DNA of 64,000 nt. Source: Mordavella massiliensis (GTDB lineage Bacteria; Bacillota; Clostridia; Lachnospirales; Lachnospiraceae). Below the pieces are notes generated by a model. The model saw nothing but the letters and a program-made list of their open reading frames with translations, did not search any database and was not told the origin of the DNA. Of this stretch, positions 1,010 through 8,938 are shown piece by piece. How positions within the stretch are numbered: the stretch's first letter is position 1; the number at the start of each line of letters is the position of its first letter. The stretch lies in the NCBI RefSeq assembly GCF_016902415.1, contig NZ_JACJLV010000008.1, positions 1-64,000 of the forward strand, read 5' to 3'. Position numbers and translations under genes: made by a program.

Positions 1010-1417
1010 CTACCGGCAGTGATATATAATCTTTGACACTTTCTTTCCAGTACTTAGATAGCCGTACTGTCTGATTCCCTCCCGGATGATCTGGTCCAGC
1101 TTTTCTTTTGACAGCCGGCAGATCGTATCATCCTCCAGGATAATCTCACATCCGCCGTCATTACAGCACCCTTCCCCGCACTCAATCTTGTACAGGTTCT
1201 GCCTGCTGATCGCTCCAATCTCTTCCAGTGCGTTGATCATGCGATAAACCGTCGCCACCCCGATCCGTTTGTCCTGTTTCGAAGCCTTGTAATAGATTTC
1301 TTTGCAGCTTGCACAGTCATCCTTCAGGATGATATCAATCAGAAGTTTTCTCTGCTTTGTGATACGACATCCATTTTCTTTTAATTGTTCTATGATTTCA
1401 TCTTTTCTGCTCACCAT
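1010..1417 (-). CDS. Fur-family regulator with cysteine-rich sensor region
   Basis: This 135-aa protein has the Fur N-terminal winged helix (CRITKQRKLLIDII, then IGVATVYRMINALEEIGAI at about 52-70). The histidine-rich metal-binding stretch expected near residues 80-95 is replaced by a cysteine cluster (C80, C84, C85, C90), with further cysteines at 35, 38, 100 and 134. It should be a DNA-binding metal or redox sensor, but not a standard Fur/Zur/PerR. It is encoded 14 nt downstream of the HMA protein gene in one transcript, whose promoter carries CTAAC/GTTAG palindromes that it may bind itself (inference). Confidence 0.85.
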   Translation of the reverse strand: MVSRKDEIIEQLKENGCRITKQRKLLIDIILKDDCASCKEIYYKASKQDKRIGVATVYRMINALEEIGAISRQNLYKIECGEGCCNDGGCEIILEDDTICRLSKEKLDQIIREGIRQYGYLSTGKKVSKIIYHCR

Positions 1418-1431
1418 ACCGCCGCCTCATA

Positions 1432-1800
1432 TCAGGAAATGCTGACAACTTCAAATCCCGCTCCTTCTACAGCCTGTTTCAGAACACTCTCATCTACCGC
1501 ACGGTCGTAAGACACTTCCGCTCGGTTATCTTTCAGGTTTACTTTTGCGGAAACCCCGTCTATCGCGTTAAGCGCATTTGTCACACTGTTCACACAGTTC
1601 TGGCAGTGCATGCCTGAAATGCGGATCGTGCGGCGTCCGATCACAGAACCATCAAGCGTCTTCCTTTTCGGCTTTTTCGGCTTCACGCTGCCGGATCCGC
1701 CACCGCAGCATGCCCCCTCTCCTTTGAAATGCTTCAACGATCCCTTCACCGCAAAGATGAGAACGATCAGGATCACCACCATAATAATCGCGTCACCCAT
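1432..1800 (-). CDS. Cys-rich membrane protein with C-terminal heavy-metal-associated domain
   Basis: A 122-aa protein. One N-terminal membrane helix (about residues 4-19) is followed by a CCGGG cluster (32-36), like that of FeoB-associated Cys-rich membrane proteins. A basic linker leads to an HMA domain with GMHCQNC and metal-binding Cys at about 66 and 69. A GTG lies one codon earlier, but GGAGGG at 1807-1812 is 6 nt from the ATG at 1800, which is therefore preferred. It could pass metal (Cu or Fe) at the inner face of the membrane. First gene of an operon with the Fur-like regulator. Confidence 0.85.
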   Translation of the reverse strand: MGDAIIMVVILIVLIFAVKGSLKHFKGEGACCGGGSGSVKPKKPKRKTLDGSVIGRRTIRISGMHCQNCVNSVTNALNAIDGVSAKVNLKDNRAEVSYDRAVDESVLKQAVEGAGFEVVSIS

Positions 1801-1835
1801 CACTATCCCTCCATCCTGTTCCTGTCATTCTATTG

Positions 1836-1867: not shown

Positions 1868-1912
1868 TAACTCCAGGTGGATTTTATTGATATTTTTTCT
1901 CAAAAACAAAAA

Positions 1913-1953
1913 ACTGATGTTTTCTGCGACAAATCGTCACTGAAAACATCAGT
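1913..1953 (-). terminator. terminator of the DUF6110/P-type ATPase operon
   Basis: A 12-bp stem (1913-1924 with 1942-1953, ACTGATGTTTTC and its complement) is followed on the minus strand by a T-run (TTTTTTGTTTTT). It lies 20 nt past the ATPase stop codon and separates that operon from the HMA-fur unit. Confidence 0.85.
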
Positions 1954-1973: not shown

Positions 1974-4055
1974 CTATTCTTCCGTCAAAAGATTTCTCAT
2001 ACTTTGCAGGCTGATCAGCAGTGTGGATGTGTTGTGAAGCAGCGCCGAGGATGTAGGCCTGATCCGTCCGGTGATCCCAAGCGCGATCAGCGCCGCGTTG
2101 ATCCCGATGATCTGGTGATAATTTTTCCCGATCCGTTTCATCATCCCGTTTGCGAGACGCTTCAGTACCACCAGTTCCGCCAGGTCTTCCGCCGCAATGG
2201 TAATATCGGCGATCTCTCTTGCAAGCTCCGCGCCGTCGCTGATGGCAATGCCCGCGTCAGCGGCGGACAGGGCCGGGGAATCATTGATCCCGTCCCCGAT
2301 CATGATGACCTTGTGTCCCAGCGCTTTTTCCCGCTCCACAAATCCTGCCTTTTCTTCCGGCAGCACCTCCGCGTAATACTCGTCCACGCCGACCCGGCGG
2401 GCGACAGCAGCAGCGGTCTTCTCACTGTCCCCGGTCATCATGACCGTTTTCTGTATCCCTTCCGCTCTCAGCGCCCGGATCATGTCCGCCGCCTCTTCCC
2501 GCAGGGGATCTTCGATGCAGATCACCGCGACGAGTTCCTTTTCAATGGCAAGATACAGGTGGGAGTACTCTTCCGGCAGCGCCTCAAATCTTTCCCGGCA
2601 TTCCGGGCGGACCGTGCAGCCTTCGTCTTCAAATACAAAATGACTGCTTCCGATCACCACCTTTTTCCCGTCAATATATGAGGAGATCCCATGCGCCACC
2701 ACATACTCTACTTTCGAATGCATTTCCTCATGGGCGAGCCGGCGCTTCTTTGCCGCATCCACCACGGCCTTTGCCATGGAATGGGGGAAATGTTCCTCCA
2801 GGCACGCTGCGATCCGCAGGCATTCTTCCTCCGGTTCCTCTCCGAACGGGATCACTGCTTTCACCGTGGGCTTCGCCTTTGTGAGCGTCCCGGTCTTGTC
2901 AAAGACCACGGTATCCGCTTCCGCGACCGCTTCCAGGAATTTCCCGCCTTTCACGGTGATCCCGTACCCGCCGGCCTCCCGGATCGCTGAGAGCACAGTC
3001 AGGGGCATGGCAAGCTTCAGGGCGCAGGAAAAGTCCACCATAAGCACGGACAACGCCTTTGTCACATTTCTGGTCAGGAGTCCGGCTGCCGCCGTGCCAA
3101 GCAGAGTGTACGGCACCAGCCGGTCGGCCAGATGCTCCGCCCTGCTCTCCATAGAAGACTTCAGTTTCTCCGAATCTTCGATCATGGCCACGATCTTTTC
3201 AAATCTGGTGGAGCCGGAAACCGCCTTTACCAGGATGTCCAGTTCGCCTTCCTCCACCACGGTTCCCGCATAGACGGACTGCCCTGGCACCCTGCGCACG
3301 GGCATGGCCTCCCCTGTAAGGGAGACCTGGTTTACCATGCCTTCCCCGCCGGACACCTCTCCGTCAAAGGGGATCACATTTCCCATATGTACGGTCACAA
3401 CGTCGCCCTTTCGGATCTGATCCGCCTTTACCAGGATCTCCTGCCCGTCCCGTTTCAGCCAGACTTTTTTAATATTCAGGGACATGCTCCGCGCCAGATC
3501 TCCCACGGACTTTTTATGGGTCCACTCTTCCAGGAGTTCTCCCACTCCCAAAAGGAACATGACCGAACCGGCGGTATTAAAGTCCCGCCGCAGGACGGAG
3601 ACCCCGATGGCGGTTGCATCCAGAAGCGGGACTTCGATCTTCCTCTCCCGGATGCAGCGCAGCCCCGCCGCAAGATATCGAAGCGACTTAAGCGTCACGA
3701 TCCCTGCGCGCAGGGTCGCAGGCACCAGAAGCCTTCCGCCGTAGTGCAGCAGCACTTTCGCGATCAGTTTTTCCTTATAAGACGCGTTCAGCTCCCTTCC
3801 GGAATTGCGGACAATGGTCTCCGGCACGGCTACCTCTTCATACCGGAAGTTCTTCAGCAGACGGATCAGCGCAGCGCGCTCTCCAGTATAACAGATGACA
3901 GCGTCTGCGGTGCGCTCATACACTTTCACATCTGTTATATTGCCCTGCCTGTCCAGATACCAGAAAAGAGTATCCGCCTCCGCACATGTCATTTTCTCCT
4001 GAACGACATGGATGCGGAGACGGCCCCTGATCTCATGCTTTATGATAAATTTCAT
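1974..4055 (-). CDS. P1B-type metal ATPase, FezB-like (candidate ferrosome ATPase)
   Basis: This 693-aa membrane ATPase has all P-type motifs: TGEAMP (247-252), DKTGT (phosphorylated Asp386), TGDS (541-544) and GDGIND (587-592). The HP-loop equivalent is HFPHSMA (about 422-428). The N-terminal ~75 residues form an HMA-like fold without CxxC. The membrane metal motif reads SCALK (343-347) where most P1B pumps have CPC, SPC or TPC. This non-CPx form and the DUF6110 partner fit the P1B-6 group that includes FezB, the ferrosome ATPase, better than a copper exporter. It starts 6 nt after the partner's stop with only a distant weak ribosome site, which suggests coupled translation. The substrate, presumably iron, is inferred. 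Confidence 0.85.
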   Translation of the reverse strand: MKFIIKHEIRGRLRIHVVQEKMTCAEADTLFWYLDRQGNITDVKVYERTADAVICYTGERAALIRLLKNFRYEEVAVPETIVRNSGRELNASYKEKLIAKVLLHYGGRLLVPATLRAGIVTLKSLRYLAAGLRCIRERKIEVPLLDATAIGVSVLRRDFNTAGSVMFLLGVGELLEEWTHKKSVGDLARSMSLNIKKVWLKRDGQEILVKADQIRKGDVVTVHMGNVIPFDGEVSGGEGMVNQVSLTGEAMPVRRVPGQSVYAGTVVEEGELDILVKAVSGSTRFEKIVAMIEDSEKLKSSMESRAEHLADRLVPYTLLGTAAAGLLTRNVTKALSVLMVDFSCALKLAMPLTVLSAIREAGGYGITVKGGKFLEAVAEADTVVFDKTGTLTKAKPTVKAVIPFGEEPEEECLRIAACLEEHFPHSMAKAVVDAAKKRRLAHEEMHSKVEYVVAHGISSYIDGKKVVIGSSHFVFEDEGCTVRPECRERFEALPEEYSHLYLAIEKELVAVICIEDPLREEAADMIRALRAEGIQKTVMMTGDSEKTAAAVARRVGVDEYYAEVLPEEKAGFVEREKALGHKVIMIGDGINDSPALSAADAGIAISDGAELAREIADITIAAEDLAELVVLKRLANGMMKRIGKNYHQIIGINAALIALGITGRIRPTSSALLHNTSTLLISLQSMRNLLTEE

Positions 4056-4061
4056 GGGCGG

Positions 4062-4361
4062 TTACATCGTTCCTTCTTCGGAAGGATCCGCACCGTCTTC
4101 CTCTGTCTCCTGCACAGCCGCCGCTTCCTGCGCCGCCCTCTCTTCATTGATCTGCTGGGCCTCCGCAAGGATATCCTCAGCGTTCTCCTGCACAGTCGTG
4201 ACCGTTTTCATCACACAGTCTTTTGCACGCAGCGCCGCTGCCGTACACTCTGTATATACTTTCTTTGCGTCCCTGCCGGATAAAATCTTAACGCCTGCCG
4301 TCCCAAAGAGAACTCCTCCTGCAAATATTCCGATCTTTTTCATCAATGACTCACTGAACAT
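4062..4361 (-). CDS. small DUF6110-type membrane protein, FezA-like
   Basis: A 99-aa protein. A glycine-rich hydrophobic N-terminus (about residues 9-27, with GGVLFGTAG giving GxxxG spacing) is followed by a conserved amphipathic stretch (DAKKVYTECTAAALRAKDCVMK) and an acidic, Ala/Glu-rich C-terminal tail. I recognise the pattern as DUF6110, typically encoded next to P1B ATPases like the one 6 nt downstream. In ferrosome loci a small membrane protein (FezA) accompanies the P1B-6 ATPase and is needed to form the iron-storing vesicle. Equating the two is from memory of the family, not a search. GGAGG lies 9 nt before the ATG. Confidence 0.75.
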   Translation of the reverse strand: MFSESLMKKIGIFAGGVLFGTAGVKILSGRDAKKVYTECTAAALRAKDCVMKTVTTVQENAEDILAEAQQINEERAAQEAAAVQETEEDGADPSEEGTM

Positions 4362-4540
4362 ATACTTCTACCTCCTGATAATACTTTTTACTGCTCTGCC
4401 GCCGGCTGATCACTTGTGTCTGTATCCGGTATAAAATACCATTATGAAACAGAACACGGCAGCCCATGCCCAGAATCTGTGCTGTTTCATGCGCCATCAC
4501 TTCCTTCTGTTTTACTAGATTGCAATAAGAATACTATATC

Positions 4541-4577: not shown

Positions 4578-4628
4578 CGGCCTTGTCGATAAAACTTCTC
4601 ACTATCCCATATAATCTCCAAAACCCAC

Positions 4629-4670: not shown

Positions 4671-4693
4671 ATCACTGTTATATGGAGGTCGCC

Positions 4694-5311
4694 ATGGATG
4701 AAAACACAGTATCTACATTAGAGCGGATCCAGCAGGCCGCATTGGACGAATTTGCAGAAAAGGGATTCCTGGGCGCTTCCCTGCGCCAGATCGTGAAAAA
4801 TGCCGGTGTGACCACCGGCGCCTTCTACGGCTACTTTTCCAGCAAGGAAGCCCTGTTCGCCTCCATCGTGGAACCTCATGCCGCTGCCCTTATGGGCAGG
4901 TTTATGGAAGCCCAGACTTCCTTCGCGGAACTGCCCGAAGAACAGCAGCCGGATCACATGGGCGTAGAATCCTCGGACTGCGTCCACTGGATGGTGGATT
5001 ATATCTGCCGGCACCGGGAACCGGTAAAGCTGCTGCTTTGCCGGTCAGAAGGCACCAGCTATGAACATTTTGTCCATAACATGGTTGAGGTGGAAGTGGA
5101 ATATACACTGAAATATATGGATGTCCTCCGCCGCCTCGGGCGGGAGATCCCCGAACTGGATGAACAGATGTGCCATATCATTGCCAGCGGCATGTTTAAC
5201 GGGATCTTTGAGATCGTGATCCACGATATGCCGGAAGGCAGGGCCCTGCGCTATGTAGACCAGCTCAGGGACTTTTATACAGCCGGATGGCTGAAACTGA
5301 TGGGGCCGTAG
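4694..5311 (+). CDS. TetR/AcrR-family transcriptional regulator
   Basis: A 205-aa regulator with the N-terminal HTH (LRQIVKNAGVTTGAFYGYFSSKEALF, about residues 30-55) and an all-helical ligand domain. An ATG at 4682 is in frame, but GGAGG (4684-4688) can only serve the ATG at 4694, so that start is chosen. The palindrome over its own -10 suggests autorepression. A terminator separates it from the ABC genes, but it is 76 nt upstream in the same direction and is their obvious candidate regulator. The ligand is unknown. Confidence 0.9.
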   Translation: MDENTVSTLERIQQAALDEFAEKGFLGASLRQIVKNAGVTTGAFYGYFSSKEALFASIVEPHAAALMGRFMEAQTSFAELPEEQQPDHMGVESSDCVHWMVDYICRHREPVKLLLCRSEGTSYEHFVHNMVEVEVEYTLKYMDVLRRLGREIPELDEQMCHIIASGMFNGIFEIVIHDMPEGRALRYVDQLRDFYTAGWLKLMGP

Positions 5312-5326
5312 CCCCCATCTTTTTTG
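5299..5326 (+). terminator. terminator after tetR
   Basis: The hairpin GATGGGG (5299-5305) / CCCCATC (5313-5319) overlaps the tetR stop codon and is followed by TTTTTT. It implies that the ABC genes mainly use their own promoter. Confidence 0.8.
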
Positions 5327-5333
5327 CATGGCG

Positions 5334-5349
5334 GTTAGTCATTTCTAAC
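5334..5349. promoter_or_regulatory. GTTAG-N6-CTAAC operator upstream of the ABC transporter genes
   Basis: A perfect 5+5 bp inverted repeat, GTTAG-TCATTT-CTAAC, lies 38 nt before the TTG start. It matches the site over the HMA-fur promoter (1836-1851). The promoter itself is unclear; TTGCAT (5324-5329) with TAACTT (5346-5351) would place the operator in its spacer. Confidence 0.55.
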
Positions 5350-5387
5350 TTCATGATACATATTTTAACCAAAAGGGAGGTAATCAT

Positions 5388-7196
5388 TTGAAGCAGAAAA
5401 AGCAAAGCAGCCTTGCCCGCATCCTGGGTTATGCGGGCGGGCACAGAAATCTCACCCTGCTGGGCTGTATCCTCTCCGCCCTGTCCGCGGTACTGGGGCT
5501 GATCCCCTATGTGTGCGTATGGCTTGCGGCAAGGGACGTCCTGGAAACCTGGCCCGCGCTCACCGGAGTGTCCGGGTCTGCCCGCTGGGGCTGGACGGCG
5601 GTTTGGACCGCAGTCATAAGTATCGTTCTGTATTTTGCAGCGCTCATGTCCACTCATATCGCAGCCTTCCGCACGGCCCGGAATATCCGGCGCTCTGCCA
5701 TGGCGCACGTGCTGAAGCTACCGCTTGGATTCTTCACGGGCAGTCAGTCCGGACGGCTCAGGAAACTGATCGATGACAATGCCGGTCTTACAGAAGATCT
5801 GCTGGCCCACAAGCTGCCTGACCTGGCGGGAACGATCGTCACTCCCATTGCCGCCGTCCTGATGCTCTTCCTCTTTGACTGGAAAATGGGGCTTCTGTGC
5901 CTGCTCACCATGGTGCTGGCGCTGCTGTCCATGTGCCTGATGATGGGCGGAAAGAACGCCGGCTTTTTCCACCGCTATCAGAAGGAGATCGAGCGCATGA
6001 GCGGCGAGGCGGTGGAATATGTCCGGGGCATCCCCGTGGTAAAAATGTTCCAGCAGACCGTGTACTCTTTCAAAGCTTTCTATGCAGCCATCAGGGACTA
6101 CAGCGACCTTGCCAGCCAGTACGCCATGAGTTGCCGTGTGGGGCAGACCTGTTTCCTGACATTTATCAACGGAGCTTTCGCCCTGCTGATCCCGGCGGCT
6201 CTGCTGCTTGCCTCCGGCGGGGACGTGCGCACGGTGCTTGTCAACTTTATCTTCTATGCCCTGTTCGCTCCTGCCTGCGGCCAGATGATCAACCGCATCA
6301 TGTACATGAGCGAAGCTGTCATGGAGGCGGATGAAGCCGTGGGACGCCTGGATGAGATCCTGAGCCAGAAACCGATGGAAAACACAGGGGTACAGAAACA
6401 GCCGGCAGACGCCGCTGTATCCTTTGACCACGTGACCTTTACCTACCCCGGCGCGGACCGCCCGGCTCTTTCCGATGTATCGTTTGCTGTCCGGCCCGGT
6501 CAGGTGACAGCGCTGGTAGGGCCCTCCGGGGGAGGCAAGACGACAGCAGCAAGCCTCATTCCCCGCTTCTGGGATGCAGACAGCGGCGCCGTCTCCATCG
6601 GGGGCGTCAATGTCAAAGAAATGGATACGGAAGACCTGATGAAACAGACAGCCTTTGTGTTTCAGGATACCCGGCTATTTAAAGAGAGCCTTCTGGAAAA
6701 TATCCGGGCAGCCCGGCCGGACGCTTCCAGAGAGGAAGTCCTGTCCGCCGCACACGCTGCCCAGTGCGATGATATTCTGGAAAAACTTCCCCAGGGTCTG
6801 GATACTATGGTGGGCGCCAGGGGCGTGTACCTCTCCGGCGGCGAGCAGCAGCGGATCGCTCTTGCCCGCGCCATTTTAAAAGACGCGCCCATCGTGGTGC
6901 TGGACGAGGCAACTGCTTTTGCCGACCCGGAAAATGAGCACCAGATCCAGAAGGCGTTTGAAGCGCTGATCCGGAATAAAACCGTATTGATGATCGCCCA
7001 CCGGCTGTCCACCGTGCAGGATGCGGACCACATCATTGTCTTAAGCGGCGGAAAGATCGCAGAACAGGGCTGCCATGAGAGCCTGCTTGCACAGCATGGC
7101 GTGTATGCCGCCATGTGGGAAGACTATCAGCGCAGCGCCCGGTGGAAAGTCGGGCGGACAGATCCGAAAAGCGGAAAGGGGGAAAAGACCGTATGA
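5388..7196 (+). CDS. ABC transporter, fused permease-ATPase, subunit 1
   Basis: A 602-aa half-transporter. Residues 1-320 hold about six membrane helices and residues 340-580 the ATPase, with Walker A GPSGGGKTT (378-386), signature LSGGEQQ (482-488) and Walker B IVVLDEATAFADPENE (503-518). The AFADPENE extension replaces the common SNLD/ASLD and recalls siderophore-type IrtAB/YbtPQ transporters (family memory, not a search). The start is TTG at 5388, with AGGGAGG 7 nt upstream and no better ATG. It overlaps subunit 2 by 4 nt, so the two should form a heterodimer. The upstream GTTAG palindrome suggests control by metal. Confidence 0.9.
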   Translation: MKQKKQSSLARILGYAGGHRNLTLLGCILSALSAVLGLIPYVCVWLAARDVLETWPALTGVSGSARWGWTAVWTAVISIVLYFAALMSTHIAAFRTARNIRRSAMAHVLKLPLGFFTGSQSGRLRKLIDDNAGLTEDLLAHKLPDLAGTIVTPIAAVLMLFLFDWKMGLLCLLTMVLALLSMCLMMGGKNAGFFHRYQKEIERMSGEAVEYVRGIPVVKMFQQTVYSFKAFYAAIRDYSDLASQYAMSCRVGQTCFLTFINGAFALLIPAALLLASGGDVRTVLVNFIFYALFAPACGQMINRIMYMSEAVMEADEAVGRLDEILSQKPMENTGVQKQPADAAVSFDHVTFTYPGADRPALSDVSFAVRPGQVTALVGPSGGGKTTAASLIPRFWDADSGAVSIGGVNVKEMDTEDLMKQTAFVFQDTRLFKESLLENIRAARPDASREEVLSAAHAAQCDDILEKLPQGLDTMVGARGVYLSGGEQQRIALARAILKDAPIVVLDEATAFADPENEHQIQKAFEALIRNKTVLMIAHRLSTVQDADHIIVLSGGKIAEQGCHESLLAQHGVYAAMWEDYQRSARWKVGRTDPKSGKGEKTV

Positions 7197-8938
7197 CAAA
7201 GAAATTACAGCACGTATTCGCGCTCAGTGAGAAAGGAGCAAAAGATCTTGTAAAGGCCGTTATCTGGTGTTTTGTATGCAACTTAAGCCTGATGCTTCCG
7301 GTGGGGGCCGTCCTGTTCACGGCGCAGCACCTTTTGGATGCTATGGAAACCGGCGGCAGTCCCATGGAGGGCTTCTGGATCTACACAGGCTTTGCCCTGG
7401 CGGTCCTGGTCCTTTTGTTTGTCCTCCACTGGTTCCAGTATGCTTCCCTGTATCTGGCCACTTATAAAGAGAGCGCCAGCCGGCGGGTGAGCCTGGCGGA
7501 AACACTGCGGCGGCTTCCCTTAAGCTTTTTCGGAAACCGGGACTTAAGCGACCTGACCTCCACCATGATCGCAGACTGCTCCAGTCTGGACCAGATGTTC
7601 TCCCACTACGTGCCGCAGTTATTTGCGTCCGTCTTCTCCACGCTGGTGATCGGCGTCGCCATGTTCGTTTGCGACTGGCGGATGGCGCTGGCCATCTTAT
7701 GGGTCGTGCCTGCTGCGGTCCTTCTGACGGCAGGGAGCAGGAAGATCCAGGACTCCTTCGGCACAAAGAATATTTTAAATAAACGGGCGGTCGCCGACTG
7801 TATCCAGGAAGGACTGGAAACCATCCGGGATATCAAGGCATGCAGCCGGCAGGACGCGTACATGGAAAAACTGGAGAAGAAACTTGCAGCCATGGAGAAA
7901 GGCTCCATCCGCTCAGAGCTGGCAACCGGCGTGTTCGTCTGCTCCGCCCAGGCGTTTCTCCGGCTGGGTCTGGCAACCACCATCCTGACCGGCGGAGCTC
8001 TTCTTGCGGCCGGAAAACTTTCTTTCCTCTATTTCCTCGGGTTCCTCTTTGCCGCCGCCAGGCTGTACGACCCGCTGGGGCTTGTGCTCCAGAATATCGC
8101 CGCCACCTTCAACGCCAAACTGCAGATCGAGCGGATGCGCTCCATTCTGGAACAGCCGGTGCAGAAGGGGACGGAAGAATTTACACCGAAGAACTATGAC
8201 ATCACCTTTGACCATGTCTCCTTCGCCTACCGGGAGGGGGACGGCGTACTTGAGGATGTAAGCTTCACTGCAAAGCAGGGCGAAGTGACCGCCCTGATCG
8301 GCCCCTCCGGCGGTGGGAAATCCACTGCCTGCAAATTGGCTGCCCGGTTCTGGGACGTCACCGGCGGGAAAGTTCTCTTAGGCGGAACGGATGTATCCAC
8401 AGTGGACCCGGAAACGCTTCTTCGCTCCTACTCCATGGTATTCCAGGATGTGGTGCTGTTCCGGGATACGGTGATGGAAAATATCCGTCTTGGCCGCCGA
8501 GGCGCTTCGGACGAGGAAGTGATCGCAGCCGCCAGAGCCGCCCGGTGTGATGAATTTATCCGGGAACTGCCCCGGGGCTATCAGACCATGATCGGCGAGA
8601 ACGGCTCCACCCTCTCCGGCGGCGAACGCCAGCGGATTTCCATCGCCCGCGCGCTTCTGAAAGATGCGCCGGTCATCCTTCTGGACGAGGCAACCGCCAG
8701 CCTGGACGTGGAAAATGAGAGCGCTGTTCAGGAAGCCCTCTCCCGCCTCCTCGCCGGCAAGACGGTTCTGGTCATCGCCCACCGGATGCGCACCGTGGAA
8801 GCGGCAGACAAGATCGTTGTTCTCTCTGAGGGCAGGGTGACAGAGCAAGGAACCCCTTCGGAACTGATGAAACAAAGCGGCCTCTTCCGCCATATGGTGG
8901 AGCTGCAGAGACAGAGCGCCGGGTGGAAACTTAAGTAA
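7193..8938 (+). CDS. ABC transporter, fused permease-ATPase, subunit 2
   Basis: A 581-aa partner of the preceding half-transporter: six helices, then an ATPase with GPSGGGKST, LSGGERQ and VILLDEATASLDVENE. An open frame runs 26 codons upstream, but the ATG at 7193, overlapping the previous stop as ATGA, begins the conserved sequence and follows AAAGGGGGA. This subunit keeps the ordinary ASLD extension, so the two ATPase sites are not equivalent, which is common in heterodimers. The substrate cannot be read from sequence; a siderophore or a toxic compound is possible. Confidence 0.9.
   Translation: MTKKLQHVFALSEKGAKDLVKAVIWCFVCNLSLMLPVGAVLFTAQHLLDAMETGGSPMEGFWIYTGFALAVLVLLFVLHWFQYASLYLATYKESASRRVSLAETLRRLPLSFFGNRDLSDLTSTMIADCSSLDQMFSHYVPQLFASVFSTLVIGVAMFVCDWRMALAILWVVPAAVLLTAGSRKIQDSFGTKNILNKRAVADCIQEGLETIRDIKACSRQDAYMEKLEKKLAAMEKGSIRSELATGVFVCSAQAFLRLGLATTILTGGALLAAGKLSFLYFLGFLFAAARLYDPLGLVLQNIAATFNAKLQIERMRSILEQPVQKGTEEFTPKNYDITFDHVSFAYREGDGVLEDVSFTAKQGEVTALIGPSGGGKSTACKLAARFWDVTGGKVLLGGTDVSTVDPETLLRSYSMVFQDVVLFRDTVMENIRLGRRGASDEEVIAAARAARCDEFIRELPRGYQTMIGENGSTLSGGERQRISIARALLKDAPVILLDEATASLDVENESAVQEALSRLLAGKTVLVIAHRMRTVEAADKIVVLSEGRVTEQGTPSELMKQSGLFRHMVELQRQSAGWKLK

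Follow-up and report, generated by a model that had tools for sequence, protein, structure and literature searches.

The DNA analysed comprises the first 64,000 nucleotides (nt) of contig NZ_JACJLV010000008.1 of Mordavella massiliensis (assembly GCF_016902415.1), referred to below as the window. Near its beginning, three genes on the minus strand probably constitute a ferrosome (fez) operon, whose FezA and FezB proteins would store iron in a membrane compartment together with a micro-subunit of 26 residues. The first gene of the operon codes for this DUF6219-like protein (4410-4490) and is followed by fezA, for a DUF6110 protein of 99 residues (4062-4361), and fezB, for a P1B-6 ATPase of 693 residues (1974-4055). 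A fezAB pair is in itself of a known kind; the 26-residue protein and a candidate dedicated Fur regulator are the new part.

The initial annotation had proposed a candidate ferrosome locus from the 99- and 693-residue open reading frames (ORFs), which are present as described with a 6-nt gap between them. The proposal is supported by reciprocal best ATPase hits with Clostridioides difficile and by the Feo genes found beside part of the related loci. The 99-residue protein matched Pfam DUF6110 and no other family, with 137.3 bits (expectation value, E, 2e-40; cut-off 26), and this was the single DUF6110 match in the genome. The GxxxG motif that had been noticed in its N-terminus was borne out: G16, G20 and G23 are invariant in an alignment of 25 FezA sequences (that of the window and 24 others), while in a wider FezA set (n = 15) G16 and G23 alone are invariant. 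In the structure model of FezA (mean predicted local distance difference test, pLDDT, 79.6; predicted template modelling score, pTM, 0.40) a helix predicted at residues 3-27 bears the GxxxG motif and is followed by a long helix at residues 30-90. This order of parts resembles the one described for PacL scaffolds in passages of two papers (PMC9374683, PMC13043812).

The ATPase was compared with that of genome G446. Over 954 residues, the RpoB segment of this genome is without difference to chain C of PDB entry 7l7b, the C. difficile polymerase, an entry named together with this species in four papers, and on this basis G446 was taken as C. difficile. The two ATPases are each other's best hit (58% identity over 690 residues, against 31-33% for the hits that follow), and the FezA proteins are 47% identical. 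G446 contains a single DUF6110 match (E 1.6e-22), whose gene immediately precedes that of a P1B ATPase sharing SCALK and HN with the window pump; the small protein of the window thus belongs to the same Pfam family as the neighbour of C. difficile FezB. Since this is the sole DUF6110 match there and its rough position agrees, the pair was equated with CD630_05910-05920, which is given as fezAB of C. difficile in a passage of PMC11651100. According to passages of a review (PMC12574912), FezA and FezB of C. difficile are required for ferrosomes and are repressed by Fur; an excerpt of PMC10979944 places FezB, described as a putative ferrous iron transporter, in ferrosomes. Upstream of fezA in the C. 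difficile genome lies a region (L182, about 6700-7100) packed with many copies of a repeat unit resembling TATATAAGCTAGATA.

FezB matched the heavy-metal P1B model TIGR01525 (E 3e-144). Its fourth transmembrane helix (TM4) carries VDFSCALKLAMP in place of CPx, as had been noticed earlier, and TM6 carries LHNTST. The P1B-6 motif test gave VDFSCALK in TM4 and HN in TM6, the latter being described as the P1B-6 hallmark (passage of PMC9374683). No CxxC was found within residues 1-150, in agreement with the initial annotation, and the head is predicted to have a ferredoxin-like order without this motif. The structure model of FezB (mean pLDDT 78.4) had copper, cadmium and zinc P1B pumps as its best PDB matches. 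In a tree of 59 ATPases, a fez set of 34 rows was split from 25 Cu, Zn and other P1B pumps with a support of 97 in the Shimodaira-Hasegawa-like approximate likelihood ratio test (SH-aLRT), and inside the fez set the window FezB and the C. difficile ATPase share a set of 18 rows (SH-aLRT 98). This is a quick tree with SH-aLRT as its only support measure and no bootstrap, whose two groups were defined in advance from the membrane motif and the neighbouring genes. E. coli CopA and ZntA served as references and four P1B-type paralogues from the window genome were included; long branches (L187, L116) and an odd composition in several rows, C. difficile among them, call for caution. The four paralogues have CPC or CPT in TM4 and 29-33% identity to FezB, and the fifth P-type pump of the genome matches FezB in short stretches only. 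The ATPase lies outside the Cu and Zn exporter clades of this tree, whose rows include no named Mn exporter. A Cu, Zn or Cd exporter of the P1B-1 or P1B-2 type was ruled out by the tree placement together with SCALK in place of CPx.

The pairing of the two genes recurs in related loci. Of the 61 loci with a FezA match, 59 have FezB on the same strand downstream of FezA, with at most 583 nt between the two matches (the exceptions being L054 and L058); among the 37 loci fetched with FezA the figure is 35. Among 391 genomes sampled from the class Clostridia, 29 have a DUF6110 match (24 above the curated cut-off), as do 21 of 61 near relatives (19 above it). A plasmid search with FezA as query gave no match. 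A Deinococcus plasmid nevertheless carries a DUF6110 protein next to a P1B pump, so that such a search misses distant members. On an Arcobacter plasmid (L189, 2150-5905), the gene of a P1B-6-like pump comes after two others, annotated as coding for YtxH-domain and DUF2202 proteins, neither of which gave a Pfam match; this cluster is possibly fez-like of another make.

An ORF of 26 codons that the initial annotation did not list, with the product MKQHRFWAWAAVFCFIMVFYTGYRHK, lies between the candidate operator and fezA (4410-4490, minus strand), ending about 50 nt before the latter. Judged by eye, the protein, which has a basic end, probably forms one membrane helix. Under a strict pattern, 14 of 63 loci have a similar ORF ahead of fezA. 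For 12 of these small ORFs the median proportions of synonymous and nonsynonymous differences (pS and pN) were 0.89 and 0.20, a ratio of 0.23, and a purine-rich stretch stands before each; the 26-residue protein is under purifying selection. A profile built from 13 sequences gave eight hits with E <1e-7 in the 61 relatives, all immediately before a fezA-type gene, and three of them belong to genomes outside the profile (G397, G413 and G419). In G413 the DUF6110 search was empty, and the small ORF is followed by a FezA-like protein and then a P-type pump; this FezA-like protein scored 23.1 bits with DUF1490 (cut-off 28.4) and 17.8 bits with DUF6110 (cut-off 26), below both. Eight weaker profile matches fell in G400, G416 and G417. 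Two of them, from G400 and G417, were examined and are longer DUF6219-type proteins of 83 and 79 residues with two motif copies.

The small protein also tracks DUF6110 on a wider scale. Of the 391 class genomes the profile hit 11, all among the 29 with DUF6110 and none in the 362 without (Fisher test, 5e-14); when only profile-independent genomes were considered, the counts were 7 of 25 against 0 of 362 (2e-9). At most 21 candidates were scored per genome, so the absence of the small protein is not absolute, and one of the 11 genomes (G385) has a DUF6110 match just under the curated cut-off. The small ORF touches fezA or fezB in six of the 11 genomes, and in G250 it directly follows fezB. In the other five (G113, G232, G332, G385 and G390) it is found on a different contig from fezA or at a distance of more than 300 kb, and inspection of the ORF lists by eye revealed no plain iron gene around it. 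The gene of the small protein can thus open the fez operon, follow fezB or sit elsewhere, and in the sampled genomes it was seen only alongside a FezA-type protein. G035 holds a complete operon at L077 and a second fez copy (L058, 6051-6422) consisting of the small ORF and fezA without fezB, which points to FezA as the partner of the small protein.

The 26-residue protein matched Pfam DUF6219 (PF19727) over the first 25 of 69 profile positions with 24.0 bits (E 3.6e-5), and since this is under the curated cut-off of 27 it is called DUF6219-like. NCBIfam gave no match for it, and no paper naming DUF6219 was found in a literature search. DUF6219-type proteins at L246 (155-1614) and L244 (233-1680) cluster with a peroxiredoxin and the peroxide-stress protein YaaA, Pfam names being available for G400 only; this hints that the family deals with iron or peroxide.

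Iron-linked genes accompany part of the fez loci. Of 54 such loci, 16 have FeoA or FeoB in the DNA fetched around them, compared with 1 of 61 control P1B loci, and 22 of the 54 have any of FeoA, FeoB, a Fur-like protein, a DtxR-type protein, flavodoxin or DUF3793, compared with 1 of 61 (p 9e-8, a guide only, because the loci are related). The 54 loci remained from 66 on the fez side after removal of six without a FezA tblastn hit (L070, with feoA and feoB, among them) and of six more, namely five other Clostridioides loci and one plasmid; at least one locus enters the count twice (L089 = L104). The controls are taxonomically wider, and 1 of the 17 from Clostridia had any of the six iron-linked genes. 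In two congeners (G391, locus L081; G392, locus L078) feoA, feoB, an HMA protein gene, a Fur-like gene, fezA and fezB follow in this order, with a DtxR-type gene in front pointing the opposite way (Pfam names for L081). Flavodoxin and a DUF3793 protein occur together near fezAB in L080, L079, L087, L077, L064, L074 and a few more loci, and DUF3793 may belong to the iron-starvation response.

A Fur-like gene had been reported next to the locus and was confirmed at 1010-1417 (minus strand). Its 135-residue product is a divergent member of the family, with 51.2 bits to PF01475 (cut-off 23.1) over profile positions 1-65 of 121; from the Pfam match and its relatives it is a candidate regulator of the region that may control the operon. 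In Fur-family proteins of this clade the DNA-binding half is retained and the rest varies or is lost: the Fur-like ORFs of L211, L213 and L232 are just 109, 111 and 82 residues long, and others have different Cys-bearing stretches. A shared palindrome, perhaps the shared operator of the initial annotation, is present as well. Copies of this palindrome, TTGANAAANTTTNTCAA, stand at 4586-4602 (three mismatches), about 100 nt upstream of the micro-ORF, and at 1887-1903 (two mismatches), upstream of the HMA and Fur-like genes; with seven matches in the window against 4.5 expected, the two copies are meaningless by count alone. The evidence for the palindrome is instead its position and its conservation in related loci. 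In 10 loci its upstream edge lies 93-113 nt before the start of the first ORF of the operon, which is the micro-ORF in the window, L078 and L088 and fezA in the other seven, among them L081, where 15 residues weakly match the small protein (E 0.0014).

By its letters, the palindrome closely resembles a Fur box. The 10 genomes of these loci all have a relative of the window Fur-like protein (>60 bits), encoded on another contig in G416 and about 10 kb from fezA in G417. Called present at a shuffle P <=0.05, it occurs in 10 of the 13 loci whose genomes have the Fur-like gene and in 1 of the 21 others; the count covers 32 loci minus L050 (80 nt upstream) and L185, plus four loci of a blind test, and this variant palindrome was derived from the same loci that it fits. 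L057 has the palindrome without the Fur-like gene, and L059 (P 0.13), with the gene, was scored negative. In the blind test, made on loci new to the analysis, the expected negatives L035 and L039 (221 nt upstream only) were negative. A classical Fur box upstream of fezA was rejected, the best 7-1-7 match of the window having three mismatches and being no better than the best of 50 shuffles (the variant palindrome gives the better fit), and so was a CTAA/TTAG-type operator, whose matches were scattered.

Based on these observations, the following course of events may be envisaged. FezA and FezB would be made together under iron control, and FezA and the P1B-6 pump FezB would cluster in the part of the membrane that becomes the organelle. 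FezB could then move Fe(II) into the closed membrane compartment for storage. FezA may act as the scaffold, its GxxxG helix self-associating and its long charged helix gathering the pump, as its relative PacL does in mycobacteria, while the 26-residue protein could be a small membrane subunit sitting with FezA, for which the tiny KdpF-like subunits of P-type pumps are a precedent. As a tentative extension, with somewhat less than an even chance of being right in full, the ferrosome systems of many Clostridia would have an unnoticed third part, this one-helix DUF6219-like subunit of 26 residues working with FezA and overlooked because of its length; in part of the Lachnospiraceae the operon would in addition be under its own Fur paralogue via a variant Fur box.

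Several results weigh against the ferrosome reading or parts of it. A literature search brought up no data on organelles, metals or transport in this bacterium, and part of the literature calls DUF6110 proteins PacL-like and suggests effluxosome-like assemblies (section of PMC13043812). No Feo gene was seen in the DNA fetched around 38 of the 54 fez loci, nor within the first 12 kb of the window. Both expected positives of the blind test (L031 and L044) lacked the palindrome, and a tree-based test on 24 loci had four independent pairs, three of which agree (p 0.25); for these two reasons the link to the regulator is taken as a lead only. A strong ferritin (E <1e-15) was found in 4 of 19 DUF6110-positive genomes compared with 18 of 42 others (p 0.15). 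The idea that fez replaces ferritin was dropped, as this is a trend only and one "negative" genome, G413, actually has a FezA-like protein. In the window genome a single ferritin match was obtained, borderline with 24.5 bits and thus at the cut-off, which suits, without proving, the requirement for a further iron store; the congener G391 encodes a strong ferritin alongside fez.

The main rival is an iron-export effluxosome, a platform of the PacL type in which FezA would gather FezB at the cell membrane and the pump would send Fe(II) or another metal out of the cell, with no organelle formed. The kinship of DUF6110 with DUF1490/PacL, which clusters P-ATPases in membrane foci (passages of PMC9374683 and PMC13043812), speaks for it, as do the higher DUF1490 score of the G413 protein, sub-cut-off with both families, and the modelling of FezA as one helix plus a long helix. 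It is nevertheless considered unlikely, since the close C. difficile orthologue is reported to make ferrosomes (part of PMC12574912) and the window protein falls in DUF6110, has no His in its tail, unlike PacL1, and is paired with a SCALK pump. The iron-uptake neighbours and the possible Fur-type operator also fit a low-iron store better than detoxification, although weakly. That FezB moves another divalent metal (Zn, Mn, Cd or Ni), the iron neighbourhood being incidental, would agree with the description of P1B-6 pumps as poorly characterised (excerpt of PMC9374683) and with the general P1B models, which group FezB with heavy-metal and Cd/Zn pumps. The separation of FezB from E. coli ZntA and CopA and from the four paralogues of its own genome, and the enrichment of Feo neighbours at fez loci, make this highly improbable.

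As to the 26-residue ORF, it might be a translated leader, or a chance ORF, that regulates the translation of fezA and is not a subunit. Its place in the 5' region of the operon and the lack of such an ORF near fez in C. difficile would suit this explanation. Selection at the protein level argues against it, and so does the small ORF being unlinked from fezA in five genomes and directly after fezB in another: even when unlinked it still tracks DUF6110, which a leader would have no need to do. A leader or chance ORF is thus quite unlikely, and a ferrosome operon with a micro-subunit is retained as the best explanation.

An inverted repeat with a T run after fezB (1905-1952, minus strand), recognized by eye, is a likely terminator of the fez transcript. 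A gene at 1432-1803 (minus strand) codes for an HMA-domain protein by its Pfam matches, with a FeoB-associated-like N-terminus; against PF12669 (cut-off 27) this region scored 15.9 bits in the window and 33.9 bits in the congener locus L081, so that the cut-off is passed by the latter and not by the former. Beside fez, at 4682-8938, lie a TetR gene and ABC half-transporters. Such genes also adjoin fez in L058 (1635-2264) and L056 (1-4099), in genomes of other family codes, and the L058 TetR is 82% identical to that of the window, which suggests transfer of the TetR/ABC block.

Ferrosomes are among the few described membrane-bounded bacterial organelles. In passages of the review PMC12574912, a C. 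difficile fezB mutant is reported to have colonised mice less well, and it is asked whether commensals have ferrosomes. Relatives of fezAB were found in records of Lachnospiraceae, Faecalibacterium and Blautia, and gut neighbours of C. difficile may therefore store iron alike; among the matches listed in this contig scan, 80 loci, there was no C. difficile. The 26-residue protein could provide a small handle on the assembly of an organelle or pump. Two literatures are moreover joined, DUF6110 being the family both of the ferrosome protein FezA and of the "PacL-like" effluxosome scaffolds: the main text of PMC13043812 never uses the word "ferrosome", nor does that of PMC9374683 mention "FezB".

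The closest known system is fezAB of C. difficile, where a DUF6110 protein is likewise followed by a P1B-6 ATPase in the same order and on the same strand. The differences are that neither a 26-residue ORF nor, in the fetched DNA, a Fur-like gene of the window type was found around fez there, the search for the small protein covering the locus only; none was reported in G301 either, a congener of G446 from the class survey that is a close relative of C. difficile by RpoB. A gene fezX is named in C. difficile (passage of PMC11533511), and none of the several small ORFs upstream there was convincing as its counterpart. The ferrosome cluster of Desulfovibrio magneticus contains FezC, a component of some such clusters, which the initial annotation had taken for a small partner like FezA and which is a DUF4405-like cytochrome according to the section of PMC10979944 consulted. 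The PacL1-CtpC system of Mycobacterium tuberculosis, as described in parts of PMC9374683 and PMC13043812, shares with the window a small GXXG membrane protein with a Glu/Ala-rich tail that is encoded with a P1B pump, and the HN motif in TM6 of that pump. It differs in the CPC of CtpC TM4 and in the His-rich metal motif of PacL1, both foreign to the window proteins, and it is a zinc efflux platform for which these parts mention no organelle. A case comparable to the 26-residue protein is KdpF, a membrane peptide of about 30 residues that is co-transcribed with a P-type pump (excerpt of PMC3618439).

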